Made by a program: the position numbers and the translations under genes. Below, in pieces: positions 2,888-8,229 of a stretch of 27,031 bases of DNA (positions are counted from its first letter, which is position 1; each line of letters begins with the position of its first letter). The stretch is from a virus: the IMG/VR virus record IMGVR_UViG_3300036826_000052, positions 1-27,031 of that record; one strand, given 5' to 3'. The notes under the pieces were generated by a model. It was not told the origin of the DNA, ran no database searches, and worked only from the letters and a program-made list of their open reading frames with translations.

Positions 2888-2945
2888 CTGGATGTCGGTA
2901 AAACAGCGTACGCGCTTTCGGGTGAGCTGTTTTACCGACATCCAG
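2888..2945. repeat. Perfect 20-bp inverted repeat
   Basis: The left arm CTGGATGTCGGTAAAACAGC (2888-2907) and the right arm (2926-2945) are exact reverse complements around an 18-nt spacer. There is no T-run, so it is not a simple terminator. The outer 12 bases, CTGGATGTCGGT, also occur at 2773-2784, giving three copies in this region, one of them inverted. Confidence 0.75.
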
Positions 2946-3012
2946 TAAATGTCGCGCGCGTCTAGCAATCTAGTAGAACATCTGACCGTGATTCAGAGTG
3001 TTGACGACCGTT

Positions 3013-3054: not shown

Positions 3055-3102
3055 CTACCGCTGAACGTGAGTTTCCTACCGCCCGGCGCTGATATGCTAC
3101 CG
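3055..3102. promoter_or_regulatory. Three CTACCG boxes at 21-bp spacing
   Basis: CTACCG occurs at 3055-3060, 3076-3081 and 3097-3102, an exact 21-bp period (two helical turns), so all boxes face the same side of the DNA. A -10-like TATGCT (3093-3098) overlaps the third box. Such spacing suits cooperative binding by a regulator upstream of the gene at 3228. Confidence 0.5.
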
Positions 3103-3112
3103 TTCGGCCGTT

Positions 3113-3130
3113 TTGGGGTACAAATGTACC
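3113..3130. promoter_or_regulatory. Operator-like site, copy 1
   Basis: TTGGGGTACAAATGTACC contains the inverted repeat GGTACA-AA-TGTACC. The same 18 bases with a single change recur at 4414-4431, upstream of the paralogous gene. The site lies 98 bp before the ATG at 3228 and about 15 bp after a -10-like TATGCT. Confidence 0.6.
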
Positions 3131-3197
3131 GTCGAGCCTCAGGCCGTCTTGGCCGATAATAAGGGCGTAGGGCGAGGACAAGCCTCCGCCCGCTCAA

Positions 3198-3227: not shown

Positions 3228-3779
3228 ATGGCCCGTAGTAACCGCAAGCCCGCCGTCGCCGAGCAGCCCGTCGCGACGCGCACCCGCCGGACCCCCGAGC
3301 AGAAGATCGCCGACGGCCAGATCGCGTACGAGATGCGCGAGGCCGGTGAGAAGTGGGTCCCGATCGGCCAGCGCCTCGGGTACGGCGACAACGGCGGCAT
3401 CCCCGCCCGCGAGGCGATGTACGCCTACATGGCCGCGAACGGCCTGATGACGATGATCGACCCGACCGACCACGAGGCGATCGTCAAGGCGCGGCGCGGC
3501 GATGCCGGGTGGGCGGTCCTCTCCGCCCGTACCGGCCTCAAGGTCAGCGACCTGAAGGCGATCGTCCGCAACGCCGACCAGAGCCTCGTCGACAAGGGCG
3601 AGTTCCTCAGCGCCCGGACGTACGGCCTGGACGCGCGCGGCGCGGACGGCCACGGCGCCGAGCGCGCCGAGCAGGGCCGGGCGACGGTCATCCGTCGCCC
3701 GGAGGTGGCCAAGGCCGCCGACGCGCGGCGCAAGCCCGCCGCCAAGCCGCGCGCCCGCCGCACCCGGAAGGCCGCGTAG
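3228..3779 (+). CDS. Basic DNA-binding-like protein with two HTH-like modules (paralog A)
   Basis: A 183-residue basic protein, paralogous to the product of 4510-5205. Module 1 (about residues 21-70) reads TPEQKIADGQ, EMREAGEKWVPIGQRLG, GIPAREAMYAYMA. Module 2 (about 83-131) reads AGWAVLSARTGLKVSDLKAI, GEFLSARTYG. Each has the 'W..I/L..R.GL...L' look of a helix-turn-helix. The tail (165-183) is Ala/Lys/Pro/Arg-rich, like histone H1 or actinobacterial nucleoid proteins. Known: such tails bind DNA non-specifically. Inferred: a DNA-binding regulator or phage nucleoid protein. Start: GGAG is 7 nt upstream of the ATG. Upstream lie CTACCG boxes and an operator-like palindrome; downstream is a 12-bp-stem hairpin. 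Very high GC at third positions compared with the tail genes. Confidence 0.75.
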   Translation: MARSNRKPAVAEQPVATRTRRTPEQKIADGQIAYEMREAGEKWVPIGQRLGYGDNGGIPAREAMYAYMAANGLMTMIDPTDHEAIVKARRGDAGWAVLSARTGLKVSDLKAIVRNADQSLVDKGEFLSARTYGLDARGADGHGAERAEQGRATVIRRPEVAKAADARRKPAAKPRARRTRKAA

Positions 3780-3791
3780 TCAGGGTTCCCG

Positions 3792-3820
3792 CCCTTCCCT
3801 ACCGTCAAGGTAGGGAAGGG
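3792..3820 (+). terminator. Hairpin after the 3228 gene, no U-run
   Basis: CCCTTCCCTACC (3792-3803) pairs perfectly with GGTAGGGAAGGG (3809-3820) around GTCAA. It starts 13 nt after the stop codon. No T-run follows, so it may be a weak terminator, an attenuator or a 3' end stabiliser rather than an efficient intrinsic terminator. Confidence 0.5.
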
Positions 3821-3854
3821 CCATCCCTCCCATCCCTACCTGAAAGGTATAGAA

Positions 3855-4136
3855 ATGCTGAAGTTGACTCTGACCCTCGCCGCGCTCGCCGCGTCCACGT
3901 GGACGTTCGCGTTCACGGAGGTGGCCGCCGCCAAGCCGTCGTGCGGGGCTGAGGACAGCCCCTCGTGGGTCTGGTCTCGGTGCGGCGACGGACGCCGTGG
4001 CGTCGTGACGATGTGGGGTACGCCTAAGGTCGTGGACTGCCGCCACCTGCGCGACCTGATCCGGCAGGGCGACCTGGAGCCCGCGACGCCGTGGCTCCGT
4101 GGCGACTACTCGTGCGGGAGGCGCCATGCCCGCTGA
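3855..4136 (+). CDS. Small exported cysteine protein
   Basis: A 93-residue protein with a plausible signal peptide: MLK, then a hydrophobic core (about 4-21), then a small-residue cleavage region around VAAAK (23-27). The mature part holds exactly four cysteines (C30, C43, C62, C87), consistent with two disulfides outside the membrane. It contains several Trp and Arg residues, including SPSWVWSRCGDGRRG and PWLRGDYSCGRR. No family recognised. An AAAGG Shine-Dalgarno lies upstream of the ATG. It overlaps the following two-helix membrane protein by 11 nt, so the two are probably co-translated. The pair sits between the two paralogous DNA-binding genes. Inference: surface exclusion or another host-envelope role. 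Confidence 0.6.
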   Translation: MLKLTLTLAALAASTWTFAFTEVAAAKPSCGAEDSPSWVWSRCGDGRRGVVTMWGTPKVVDCRHLRDLIRQGDLEPATPWLRGDYSCGRRHAR

Positions 4137-4305
4137 GCCCTTCAAGGTCCCGGTCCGGTGGTACGTCGGCGCGGTGCTGCTCCCGATCCTTGGCGTCGTG
4201 CTGGCTATCGTCGCGCTGGCCAAGGGCGCTGTGGGCCCCGGCCTCGCGCTTGGTCTCACGAGCGCGCTCGCGTGGATGGCAGCGCTCGTGCTGTTCGGCT
4301 TCTGA
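4126..4305 (+). CDS. Small two-helix membrane protein
   Basis: A 59-residue hydrophobic protein with two predicted membrane segments (about residues 12-32 and 36-59) joined by a short KGAVGPG turn. Start: ATG at 4126 with GGGAGG 6 nt before it, inside the end of the exported-protein gene. An earlier in-frame ATG at 4099 lies deep in that gene and is less likely. A terminator follows directly. No sequence family recognised; the layout would suit a holin-like or superinfection-exclusion protein, but location away from the endolysin makes a lysis role uncertain. Confidence 0.6.
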   Translation: MPAEPFKVPVRWYVGAVLLPILGVVLAIVALAKGAVGPGLALGLTSALAWMAALVLFGF

Positions 4306-4312
4306 TGTACCG

Positions 4313-4340
4313 AAAAGCGGTCATTTTATGGCCGTTTTTT
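4313..4340 (+). terminator. Intrinsic terminator after 4305
   Basis: AAAAGCGGTCAT (4313-4324) pairs with ATGGCCGTTTTT (4328-4339) around TTT, allowing two U-G wobbles, and the right arm merges into a run of six T. It starts 7 nt after the stop of the two-helix membrane protein and separates it from the next promoter region. Confidence 0.7.
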
Positions 4341-4362
4341 GGGTGGTTTCTGCATCATGATC

Positions 4363-4390
4363 TTGCACCGCCAGCCACCGTTGCTAATAC
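4363..4390 (+). promoter_or_regulatory. Possible promoter for the 4510 gene
   Basis: TTGCAC (4363-4368) and TAATAC (4385-4390) are separated by 16 bp in the gap between the terminator and the 4510 gene. The match to the -10 consensus is modest. If used, transcription would start about 4397, so the palindrome at 4414 would lie just downstream, a position suited to repression. TAGAAT at 4466-4471 is an alternative -10 without a good -35. Confidence 0.3.
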
Positions 4391-4413
4391 TCTACTTTCC
4401 GGTGCACATCACC

Positions 4414-4431
4414 TTGGGGTACGAATGTACC
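4414..4431. promoter_or_regulatory. Operator-like site, copy 2
   Basis: TTGGGGTACGAATGTACC differs at one base (A to G) from the site at 3113-3130 and keeps the GGTAC...GTACC symmetry. It lies 79 bp before the ATG at 4510. The half-site ATGTACCG also occurs at 4305-4312, beside the terminator. Confidence 0.6.
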
Positions 4432-4509
4432 CTGGCAATCTTTAGCCTGCATTTAGGTTTGGGAGTAGAATACAAGGTGCAATGCAATCCAACGCGGGAA
4501 GGAGATCAT

Positions 4510-5205
4510 ATGAGTCCCGCACCAAGGCGCGGTCGCGCCAAGCAAGCAGAGCCGGCAGATGCCCCCAAGACCAGGCGCGGACGCGGACGTGCCGCCAAGC
4601 CCCAGGAGCCCGAGGCTGAGGCAACAAACGGCAGCGGTGACGCCGACGAGGCAACCCCGGTTGCCCGCGCCAAGTACACCCCCGAGCAGCGCCTGGAGAT
4701 GGGCCAGCAGATCGCAGAGCTGCGCGAGGACGGCACGCCCTGGCTGGAAATCGCTGAGGAGTTGGGCCTCTCGGGAGGTGTCCCCGCCCGTCAGATGATG
4801 AACGAGTACCTCGCGAGCACCGACCCGGACTTCGCACTCGACCCGGATGCCGACGACTTCGCCGACACCATCCTCGAACTGCGCGACTCGGGCACTGGCT
4901 GGGGTGAGCTCCAAGCGCGCTCCGGGCTGAGCAAGTCCGAGCTGATCGAGGTGTACACCGAGGCCGGTGGCGAGATGGCTGAGGGGCGGGTGTACTCCAA
5001 CGCCAAGTCCGGCAACGTCACCCACAAGCTCGGCTCCACGCGCGAGGACACGAACGGCACCGACGAGGACGCGCCGGAGGACAGCGAGGAGCAGGAGGCT
5101 CCGGCACCCCGTCGCGGGCGTGGCCGCCGCGCTCAGGCGCAGCCCACGGAAGAGCAGCCCGCGCCCGCACGGGGCCGCTCCAGGCGCCGCACCGCAGCCA
5201 AGTGA
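4510..5205 (+). CDS. DNA-binding-like protein with two HTH-like modules (paralog B)
   Basis: A 231-residue paralog of the 3228 product. Module 1 (about 57-102) reads TPEQRLEMGQQIAELREDG, PWLEIAEELGLSGGVPARQM. Module 2 (about 117-165) reads TGWGELQARSGLSKSELIEV, EGRVYSNAKSG. The flanks carry AT-hook-like clusters: PRRGRA near residue 5, TRRGRGRAAK near 21, PRRGRGRRAQ near 200, ARGRSRRR near 220. Acidic linkers (31-50, 177-197) separate them. Known: RGR clusters insert in the minor groove of AT-rich DNA. Inferred: a sequence-guided DNA-binding or nucleoid-like protein. Start at 4510 because AAGGAG lies 6-7 nt upstream; a longer frame would begin in the terminator/operator region. Followed by a hairpin/terminator cluster, so it is probably transcribed alone. 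Confidence 0.75.
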   Translation: MSPAPRRGRAKQAEPADAPKTRRGRGRAAKPQEPEAEATNGSGDADEATPVARAKYTPEQRLEMGQQIAELREDGTPWLEIAEELGLSGGVPARQMMNEYLASTDPDFALDPDADDFADTILELRDSGTGWGELQARSGLSKSELIEVYTEAGGEMAEGRVYSNAKSGNVTHKLGSTREDTNGTDEDAPEDSEEQEAPAPRRGRGRRAQAQPTEEQPAPARGRSRRRTAAK

Positions 5206-5211
5206 GAGCGT

Positions 5212-5237
5212 GCTAGGTCCCTGCAAAGGGACCTAGC
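5212..5237 (+). terminator. Hairpin with GCAA tetraloop
   Basis: GCTAGGTCCCT (5212-5222) and AGGGACCTAGC (5227-5237) form an 11-bp perfect stem closed by GCAA, a GNRA tetraloop. It starts 7 nt after the 4510 gene's stop. No T-run follows; it is probably a stabilising 3' structure in tandem with the terminator at 5292. Confidence 0.6.
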
Positions 5238-5461: not shown

Positions 5462-5887
5462 ATGCCGAAGGGCGACCTGGAGCGGCTCCAACGAGATCCC
5501 CAAGCTGACCCGATCACACAGCTGCTCTACGCGACCCTCCATACGCGCGCAGCCCTGGACCGGCTTGACCAGGCGATCACAAGAGACTTTGACATCCCCA
5601 CAGATCCACGGGACCCCGATCAGCTCTTCTCACATCCAACGGGCCGCTCTCTCTTTGAGTATCAGGCCCAACTTCGCGAGCAGCTTCACCGCATCGCCAA
5701 GTCCTACGTCGCGCTCGGCATCGAGGAGCGTCAGATCAAGCAGATCGAAGATTGGTCAAATGTGCTCCTGCCTCTCTTCACTGCGCTGATGGAGGACCCC
5801 AACCTGCGCCTGACGCGTCGCCAGCGCAGGGAACTCCCTGCCGCAGCAGAGCGCGCACTCGCCGTGCTGGAGCCGCAGGCCGCATGA
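5462..5887 (+). CDS. Probable terminase small subunit
   Basis: A 141-residue, mostly helical protein. It is assigned as terminase small subunit from position: its TGA overlaps the terminase large-subunit ATG by 4 nt, and it opens the late operon. Visible features: helix-rich N-terminus (LERLQRDPQADPITQLLYAT), a central helix pair (FEYQAQLREQLHRIAKSYVA, EERQIKQIEDWSNVL), and a basic C-terminal segment (RLTRRQRRELPAAAERALAV). I do not see a textbook N-terminal helix-turn-helix, so identity is by context. Known role: recognises the packaging site and stimulates the large subunit. The start appears leaderless (promoter at 5427-5455, no ribosome-binding site). Confidence 0.6.
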   Translation: MPKGDLERLQRDPQADPITQLLYATLHTRAALDRLDQAITRDFDIPTDPRDPDQLFSHPTGRSLFEYQAQLREQLHRIAKSYVALGIEERQIKQIEDWSNVLLPLFTALMEDPNLRLTRRQRRELPAAAERALAVLEPQAA

Positions 5888-7485
5888 CCTCCTCTACCCT
5901 CCCCCGCGCCCCAAGAGCCCCCAGTGGATTGGGAGCTAGCATCCGTCGCTCCATGGAAGAGCGACGCGCGTCCCATCGGTGGATCCGCAACCCCGTGGGC
6001 TGGACTATCAACCGGGCGCGAGCACACCCGTACTCCAAGCAGCGCGAGATCATGAATGCAGTGGTTCGCCATCCTCGGGTCAGTGTGCGAAGCGCACACG
6101 ACACTGGGAAGTCATGGTCCGCGGCTGACCTGACGGCGTGGTGGTTGGACGTCCACCCGCTCGGCTCTGCCTTCGTGGTCACGACGGCTCCCACCGCGCC
6201 GCAGGTCGAGGTCATCCTCTGGAGGGAGATTCAGCGCGTCAAGAACCGCGCCAACCTGCCGGGTCGCATCACCTCGGGCAACATCCCGAAGTGGAAGACG
6301 GCCAGCGACGAGATCATCGCCTATGGGCGCAAGCCCGCCGACCTGAAGTCCCAGGACGAAGCGTCTCAGGCCTTCCAGGGCATCCACGCTCGTTACATCC
6401 TCGTGATCTTGGACGAGGCGTGCGGCATCCCTGAATGGCTCTGGAACGCCGTCGAGACCATCGCCACGAACAGGTATGCACGGGTGCTAGCCATCGGCAA
6501 CCCCGACGTGCCAGACACGCCCTTCGCCAAGACGCACAAGCCAGACAGCGACTGGTTCAAGATCAAGATCAGCGCCTTCGACACGCCCGCATACACGGGC
6601 GAGGATGTGCCGGAGAGCCTGCTTCTCGACCTTGTCTCCCCGGACTGGGTCAACGCGCGCGCCAAGGACTGGGGCGTGGACTCCCCACTGTACACAAGCA
6701 AGGTTGGGGCTGAGTTCCCAGAAGTCAGTGAAGAGACTCTGATTCACCCGCGCCTTATCATGGAGGCGCAACTGCGCGATCTGAGTGGCGTCGCACTCAA
6801 CATTCCCGGGTGTTTCGGCCTCGACGTGGCCCGCTTTGGGCGCAACGAGACTGTCTGCTACCGCAATCGTGGCGGTTATCTCCGCAAGGAATTCAGCTAC
6901 AATAAGCAGGACACGATGGTGACGGCCGGTCGCGCCATCCGCGTGCTGAATCAGACCAAGGCGTCCCTTGCAAACATCTACATGGTGATCGACACCATCG
7001 GCGTCGGTGGTGGGGTATTCGATCGAATGCGCGAGCAGAACTTCCCGGTCATACCCTTCGTCGCCAGCGAGAGCCCCTCCACTCCGACGGCCAAGAAGCG
7101 GTTTGTGAACCGGCGCGCTGAGCAATGGTGGGCGTTCCGTAAGCAGTTCGAGCGTGGTGAGATTGACCTACCGCCAGCTGGCGAGGACGACAAACTGATC
7201 GCCCAACTTGGCAGCATCAAGTATTTCATCCGCAGCGACGGGCGCATTCTCGTTGAGTCCAAGGAGGACATGGAGGCGCGCGGCCTCCCATCCCCGGACC
7301 GTGGCGATGCCGCAATGATGGCGTGCGTCCGGCCGCTTCCGCAGGCAGGCGAGTTCACGATTCCGCCGCCGCATCCTGCATGGCAGCTCACTCATATGAG
7401 CGCTAACGCTGGCTTCCTAACGACGACTAGCGAAGACATCCTCGCATCTCTGACCGGCGATTTGCTCGCGGGGAGCAAGTGGTGA
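5884..7485 (+). CDS. terL: Terminase large subunit
   Basis: A 533-residue packaging motor that powers DNA translocation into the prohead and cuts the concatemer. ATPase: Walker A variant RSAHDTGKS at about residues 69-77, Walker B YILVILDEA at 171-179, and a coupling-type segment VLAIGNPDVPDTPF near 201-213. Nuclease (RNase H-like): GLDVARFG with D314, MVIDTIGVGGGV with D370, and SPDRGDAAMMA with D472/D475, the acidic residues expected for two-metal catalysis. Length is normal. Start at 5884 by ATGA overlap with the small subunit; the frame is open further upstream but only inside that gene. Downstream it runs into a small membrane protein, with a GTGA overlap at 7482-7485. Confidence 0.93.
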   Translation: MTSSTLPRAPRAPSGLGASIRRSMEERRASHRWIRNPVGWTINRARAHPYSKQREIMNAVVRHPRVSVRSAHDTGKSWSAADLTAWWLDVHPLGSAFVVTTAPTAPQVEVILWREIQRVKNRANLPGRITSGNIPKWKTASDEIIAYGRKPADLKSQDEASQAFQGIHARYILVILDEACGIPEWLWNAVETIATNRYARVLAIGNPDVPDTPFAKTHKPDSDWFKIKISAFDTPAYTGEDVPESLLLDLVSPDWVNARAKDWGVDSPLYTSKVGAEFPEVSEETLIHPRLIMEAQLRDLSGVALNIPGCFGLDVARFGRNETVCYRNRGGYLRKEFSYNKQDTMVTAGRAIRVLNQTKASLANIYMVIDTIGVGGGVFDRMREQNFPVIPFVASESPSTPTAKKRFVNRRAEQWWAFRKQFERGEIDLPPAGEDDKLIAQLGSIKYFIRSDGRILVESKEDMEARGLPSPDRGDAAMMACVRPLPQAGEFTIPPPHPAWQLTHMSANAGFLTTTSEDILASLTGDLLAGSKW

Positions 7486-7682
7486 GTTCTGACTGGTTCA
7501 TCACTTTGCTCGGTGCACTGACATTTCTCGTCGGCGTGGCTGGCGCTGTAAAGGCTGGCGCAAAGCTCAGCCGCGGACAACTGACGGATCTCATTGAGGT
7601 GCAGCATAGTGTCTGGCAGGAAACGCGCACCGAGCTTGAGGACTGTCGTGAAAAGGTAAAGAGCATGAGCGGTGGGACGTAA
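7482..7682 (+). CDS. Small membrane protein, putative holin-like
   Basis: A 66-residue protein with one N-terminal membrane segment (about residues 6-26, WFITLLGALTFLVGVAGAV) followed by a charged helical tail with coiled-coil character (LTDLIEVQHSVWQETRTELE, DCREKVKSM). It starts with GTG, at 7482 (overlapping the terminase stop) or 7479; GGGGAG about 6 nt upstream favours 7482. This shape is seen in small holins and holin-associated proteins. Position two genes before the endolysin supports a lysis role, but no family is recognised. Its end overlaps the next gene by 11 nt. Confidence 0.6.
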   Translation: MSSDWFITLLGALTFLVGVAGAVKAGAKLSRGQLTDLIEVQHSVWQETRTELEDCREKVKSMSGGT

Positions 7683-8229
7683 GCAATGGCTCCTGGTGCT
7701 CTACGTCGGCGTAATTGGCGCACTCTCTGGTGCGATTGGCATCGCAGTCGGCGTCAACGAACTGACGAAGCCTTCGACCCAAGTTGTCACGGTCAAAGGT
7801 GCAACCGGACAACCTGGGCCGCGCGGGCTGCGGGGAGAAACTGGGCCGAAGGGCGCCACTGGCTCGAAGGGAGCAAAAGGTGATACAGGAGCGACCGGAG
7901 CATCTGGACAACCTGGCGAGCCAGGTCAGCCAGGACAGCCAGGAGCCACCGGGCTACGTGGTCCCAGTGGAGTTCGCGGAGCACAAGGCGCTCGCGGAGC
8001 AAGCGGCAATCGCGGCGCAACGGGTGGAAGAGGCGCGACTGGCGCAACTGGAGCGGAAGGAGCACAGGGCATTCCAGGACCAGAGGGTCCAGATGGTGCT
8101 CCGGGACCGCAGGGCATTCCAGGCCCCACCGGTCCGCCGTGTCCGCTCGGGACAACGCTGACAACTATCGACGTACATCAACGCAACCCGGAGGCAACAG
8201 CGACAATCACGATCTGTCTGGTGAACTAA
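7672..8229 (+). CDS. Membrane-anchored collagen-like protein
   Basis: A 185-residue protein with GTG start. MGRKQ is followed by a membrane segment (about 6-27), a short linker (NELTKPSTQVVTVK), then 38 uninterrupted Gly-X-Y triplets (about residues 44-157) and a non-collagenous C-terminal cap with a GPPCPLG cysteine and a beta-like ending (TATITICLVN). Known: phage collagen-like proteins are usually tail-fibre parts and form triple helices. Here the N-terminal anchor and location between a holin-like gene and the endolysin suggest instead that a trimer projects from the host membrane. Alternatively the hydrophobic segment could be a virion-associated anchor. The stop TAA shares its last base with the endolysin ATG. 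Frames overlapping it on both strands are shadows of the repeat. Confidence 0.8.
   Translation: MGRKQWLLVLYVGVIGALSGAIGIAVGVNELTKPSTQVVTVKGATGQPGPRGLRGETGPKGATGSKGAKGDTGATGASGQPGEPGQPGQPGATGLRGPSGVRGAQGARGASGNRGATGGRGATGATGAEGAQGIPGPEGPDGAPGPQGIPGPTGPPCPLGTTLTTIDVHQRNPEATATITICLVN

Follow-up and report, generated by a model that had tools for sequence, protein, structure and literature searches.

The window, as we call the whole 27,031-base record of an uncultured virus analysed here, encodes two paralogous proteins, each predicted to carry two helix-turn-helix (HTH) units in tandem. A common palindrome lies upstream of both genes, and a direct-repeat array upstream of the first. The family that the proteins form is new, its general kind is known, and its cis-element is well defined. 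The two proteins very likely bind DNA in a sequence-specific manner. Our best reading is that they control their own genes and probably also the early/late boundary, because the sites lie in promoter-like regions of separate units, neither of which has a good −35 element. We consider it an even chance that the proteins are auto- and cross-regulated DNA-binding proteins at this boundary.

The record has the gene order of a myovirus, with terL (5752–7485) followed by the portal, protease, capsid, tail sheath and tape measure genes in order. Every match to the capsid protein comes from a phage named after Gordonia, Arthrobacter, Mycobacterium, Corynebacterium, Microbacterium or Mycolicibacterium, so the host is likely actinobacterial. 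The sister contig G001 (56 kb) codes for Pol III alpha, a Toprim-MCM protein, a SNF2 helicase, a SAP-domain protein, an AAA ATPase, a PD-(D/E)XK nuclease and ThyX, and no integrase or CI-type repressor was found among its scanned proteins. Its Toprim and MCM P-loop domains share a single 904-aa protein (L049:1499-4213, minus strand), possibly a primase-MCM helicase fusion. Elsewhere in the window, a collagen-like triple-helix repeat protein is encoded at 7672–8229, between terL and an endolysin-like gene, and a 299-aa orphan ORF at 1505–2404 matches nothing in Pfam or PHROG, and NCBIfam only at chance level. The region of the two genes is laid out as follows (G002 and G003, close relatives; L064, a distant one).

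3055–3102, plus strand: array of three CTACCG direct repeats (3055, 3076, 3097) with 21-bp spacing, upstream of gene 1
3117–3130: palindrome GGTACAAATGTACC, upstream of gene 1, kept in all close relatives
3153–3162, plus strand: putative −10-like block CCGATAATAA of gene 1 (GCCGATAATA from 3152), also kept in L064
3228–3779, plus strand: gene 1, tandem-HTH protein of 183 aa (module 1 ~21–74, module 2 ~79–123, basic C-terminal tail)
3791–3821, plus strand: terminator-like hairpin after gene 1
3855–4305, plus strand: intervening small genes, unmatched in the distant relative
4310–4342, plus strand: terminator-like hairpin following the small gene pair
4418–4431: palindrome GGTACGAATGTACC, upstream of gene 2, with one mismatch in G003 and lost in G002
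4466–4471, plus strand: putative −10-like TAGAAT of gene 2; three phages share TANNNT here
4510–5205, plus strand: gene 2, paralogous tandem-HTH protein of 231 aa (module 1 ~53–106, module 2 ~111–156, RGR-rich tails at both ends)
5212–5237, plus strand: terminator-like hairpin after gene 2
5462–5887, plus strand: terS-like gene, downstream of the HTH genes and without a recognisable HTH

Modules, fold and relatives of the two proteins

Both open reading frames of the preliminary description are present. For gene 2, a mechanically assigned TTG start at 4339 was rejected in favour of 4510, where the beginning MSPAPRRGRAK is kept in three phages. The two proteins match each other in BLASTP at E=2e-19 (36% over 122 aa), which bears out the shared modules and the whole-gene duplication proposed earlier. 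Module 1 of one protein aligns to module 1 of the other with a score of 109 (shuffles 22.6±4.6), and module 2 to module 2 with 57 (shuffles 19.4±3.9). Within protein 2, the comparison of module 1 with module 2 gives 53 against 22.3±4.7 for shuffles (hhalign E=1.2e-6, over the first two helices only); within protein 1 it gives 24 against 18.7±3.6, and 10% of shuffles reach 24. An intragenic duplication had also been proposed, and this part finds agreement in protein 2 but not in protein 1. Even in protein 2 the likeness of the modules need not mean internal duplication, since two generic HTHs can look alike without it. Because equivalent modules match across the proteins far better than modules 1 and 2 match within either, the tandem layout is older than the gene duplication.

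In the AlphaFold model of protein 2, two consecutive three-helix units (helices 58–73, 78–85 and 90–104, then 117–126, 131–138 and 142–151; pLDDT about 90) are flanked by disordered tails. The model of protein 1 has the corresponding six helices at lower confidence, about 70–80 for module 1 (23–38, 43–49 and 57–70) and only about 50–60 for module 2 (82–88, 92–102 and 106–119). The shared fold with two HTHs per protein is therefore predicted confidently for protein 2 and weakly for module 2 of protein 1. Both models consist of three-helix HTH units as in HTH proteins in general, and neither contains a third folded or oligomerisation domain, strands or a winged helix. A Foldseek search with the model of protein 2 gave no match at E<1e-3, the weaker ones being to Myb, Pax, ParB/KorB and phage HTH proteins; the protein 1 model was left out of this search because of its low confidence. 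The dN/dS values are 0.16–0.32 in the cores and 0.38–0.88 in the tails, and by this measure the cores are under purifying selection, the tails less so.

Protein scans found homologs in four IMG/VR contigs, all four with both genes and one identical to the window across both proteins. With L064, whose ~31% identical HTH protein these scans missed (HMM E=7e-8), the homologs found come from just five IMG/VR contigs in addition to the window. There was no credible homolog in INPHARED, PLSDB or GTDB genomes. Homologous pairs in other actinophages, for which the preliminary description had suggested looking, did not appear: searched with the whole proteins at E<=1e-3, 50,697 phage records yielded none, and the cores gave only chance-level matches to these records at E<=10. 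As far as these searches reach, the gene pair is known only from close IMG/VR relatives, and in the one distant relative a single copy can be seen. Neither protein matches a Pfam or NCBIfam family above the curated cut-off. Protein 2 and its orthologs weakly match, through module 1, the HTH proteins of phrog_686 and phrog_645 (best E 4e-5 and 6e-4), which have one HTH only; protein 1 gives no such match. The label 'RNase E' carried by phrog_645 was set aside, as the match covers one HTH. Also discarded were PDB sequence matches to SH3 domains and SAR1b (spurious), sub-threshold Rfam microRNA matches (taken as chance) and contig L114, which matched at HTH level only.

The L064 protein has two HTH modules, and its gene immediately precedes those for the terS-like protein and TerL. 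The neighbours are 53–73% identical to those of the window (TerL 65%, lysin 73%, portal 66%), against about 31% for the HTH protein, and by this comparison the HTH proteins diverge much faster than TerL, lysin and portal. A single copy is visible in this contig; upstream of the HTH gene the contig continues for only about 300 bp, and a second copy may lie beyond its end. The protein is nearer protein 2 in sequence, and the promoter resembles that of gene 1. No match to the window's intervening small genes was found at this HTH-terS locus. The L064 gene (L064:9384-9962, minus strand) lacks an ATG, GTG or TTG in the region of its start, and alignment of its leader points to ATT as the start codon.

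Palindromes, array and transcription units

The palindromic sites reported at 3113 and 4414 are real, with two GGTACN4GTACC in the window against 0.02 expected. These are the only two in the 27 kb, G001 likewise has only two in 56 kb, and each lies upstream of one paralog. In G003, the conserved palindrome is preceded, at a distance of 205 bp, by an extra GGGGTACATATGTACCCC palindrome (L006:3046-3059).

Three equally spaced CTACCG were found in 0 of 5000 shuffles of the region, and the GTAC of the palindrome at 3118 shares the 21-bp register of the array. Across IMG/VR, the bare triple array occurs in 90 stretches, mostly within coding sequence. Where the 21-bp triple CTACCG occurs at unrelated loci, mostly in long open frames, GATAAT never follows within about 100 bases; beyond the known relatives, only L064 has GATAAT near the bare array, and its HTH gene follows a short way downstream. 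The pattern of a TACCG array with GCCGATAATA is found in exactly five contigs of all IMG/VR, L064 included, and all five encode this family. Since the contigs with array and −10-like block all carry the family, the array is a family-specific element, found independently of protein similarity; it is specific enough for a DNA scan to have found the homolog that protein scans missed. Two matches to the operator TTGGGGTACNAATGTACC were rejected, one in an unrelated tail-region contig (L057) where the site lies inside coding sequence, the other in L058, where no relative was found. Upstream of the array, a non-coding block GTAAATGTCGCGCGCGTCTAGCAATCTAGTAGA (window 2944–2978) is nearly identical in three phages. 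A very strong hairpin at 2888–2945 (27-nt arms, z −9.3), near an AT-rich run at 2687–2730, is absent in G002.

Strong hairpins follow gene 1, gene 2 and the intervening pair (z −5.7, −5.6 and −4.9), in line with the solitary transcription units described earlier. The intervening genes had been called a small membrane pair; by inspection, one codes for a two-helix membrane protein (4126–4305) and the other for a signal-peptide protein (3855–4136).

In own-gene control, the proteins would themselves bind the palindrome and the array, the paralogs would cross-regulate, and the tails would contribute non-specific affinity. The sites are centred near −43 and −53 of the presumed starts, and with no good −35 this would favour activation over repression. 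Transcription would be controlled at the border of the early genes and the packaging/structural block, starting with the proteins' own genes. The dual-regulator switch suggested in the preliminary description is compatible with this anatomy, as the palindrome is common to both promoters and the terminators are separate. Several findings count against a regulator. Family and fold searches gave only weak, generic matches; in L064 the array and the −10 are spaced differently, by 14 bp, and GGTACN4GTACC is absent; and G002 has lost the gene 2 palindrome. In addition, only one array was seen in the parts of the genome examined, with no regulon visible beyond the paralogs' own promoters, and such a single occurrence speaks against a regulator because it is expected for pac or ori.

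Possible alternative functions of the proteins and the array

The tandem-HTH protein and the 21-bp array may instead make up a self-contained genome-handling site (pac or ori), the DNA recognition of terS having moved to a separate, later duplicated protein; we regard this as a tentative possibility. Its packaging form, in which the tandem-HTH protein gives in trans the DNA binding that the terS-like protein lacks and the array is pac or part of it, seems to us rather doubtful. The terS-like protein, apparently HTH-less, matches only positions 140–212 of the 213-position phrog_3678, the C-terminal third. The L064 gene order of HTH protein, terS-like and terL and the single array site also suit packaging, as does phrog_645, matched both by protein 2 and by the DNA-binding protein that Arthrobacter phage Amigo encodes upstream of its terL. 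However, no profile homology to the Amigo protein itself was found, a −10-like block follows the array in every case, and terminator-like hairpins separate the HTH genes from terS. Moreover, small terminases combine an HTH and an oligomerisation domain in one chain, and the models of both proteins lack the latter.

The chromatin-like function raised in the preliminary description takes the proteins to be of nucleoid type, coating phage or host DNA via their basic tails while the HTHs add weak specificity. Its one basis is tail composition, and we think it unlikely. The two proteins do have the most basic C-terminal tails of the 36 listed window ORFs, with 12 and 10 K+R in the last 30 residues (next 7). 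Their character stays basic, with RGR clusters in protein 2, KPAAKPRARRTRK in protein 1 and an H1-like KAAKKAAK tail in L064, but the tails evolve fast and the net charge of protein 2 is acidic (−11). Of the histone-like and AT-hook-like tails claimed earlier, the basic tails and RGR motifs are present, but the RGR motifs are not canonical AT-hooks with a PRGRP core. Similar RGR or K/A-rich basic segments occur in phage Lsr2 (PMC8612146) and in tailed actinobacterial HU proteins; no Lsr2 or HU domain was found here by Pfam. Late, poorly specific phage HTH proteins that bind dsDNA do exist, such as gp94 of mycobacteriophage Alexphander (PMC11242194), which has a MerR-type HTH with a DinB/YfiT domain and discriminates little between sequences. 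Against a nucleoid-type function, site-specific elements are linked to the HTH genes.

Rep proteins of iteron plasmids have two DNA-binding domains, and phased direct repeats with an inverted repeat lie in their own promoter. An initiator of this kind, bound as monomers to the 21-bp-phased repeats at an origin and as dimers to the inverted repeat controlling its own synthesis, would account for the direct repeats near two helical turns and the inverted repeat that precede a gene whose product has two DNA-binding domains. An AT-rich run and a hairpin lie close by, but both are missing in G002, and since they are not conserved we lowered this reading to quite unlikely. In addition, the repeat units share only 6 bp, the models lack the two winged-helix domains of iteron Rep, and the phage has its own polymerase and primase-helicase.

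Control of the phage genes by a host regulator is highly improbable: both window sites literally fit the published Nostoc LexA consensus RGTACNNNDGTWCB, but the capsid relatives are all in actinophages, the actinobacterial LexA box, GAAC-N4-GTTC, is absent from the sequences checked, and the array is left unexplained.

Known repressors and biological meaning

Like the immunity repressor of the Cluster A mycobacteriophage TipsytheTRex (PMC9283540), the proteins described here are small actinophage proteins with two DNA-binding domains in one chain. The second domain of the Cluster A repressor, however, has a special stoperator fold, whereas here both units are ordinary HTHs. Cluster A genomes carry asymmetric sites at many scattered positions, whereas the palindrome and the one array described here are confined to the paralogs' upstream regions. 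No PDB or INPHARED sequence or profile match to the Cluster A HTH-stoperator protein was found.

None of the curated libraries searched contains the family. If the array is a packaging site, DNA recognition would be separated from the small terminase in these phages. If, as in own-gene control, the proteins bind the palindrome and the array, they would form a compact phage switch in which duplicated regulators have a common operator.
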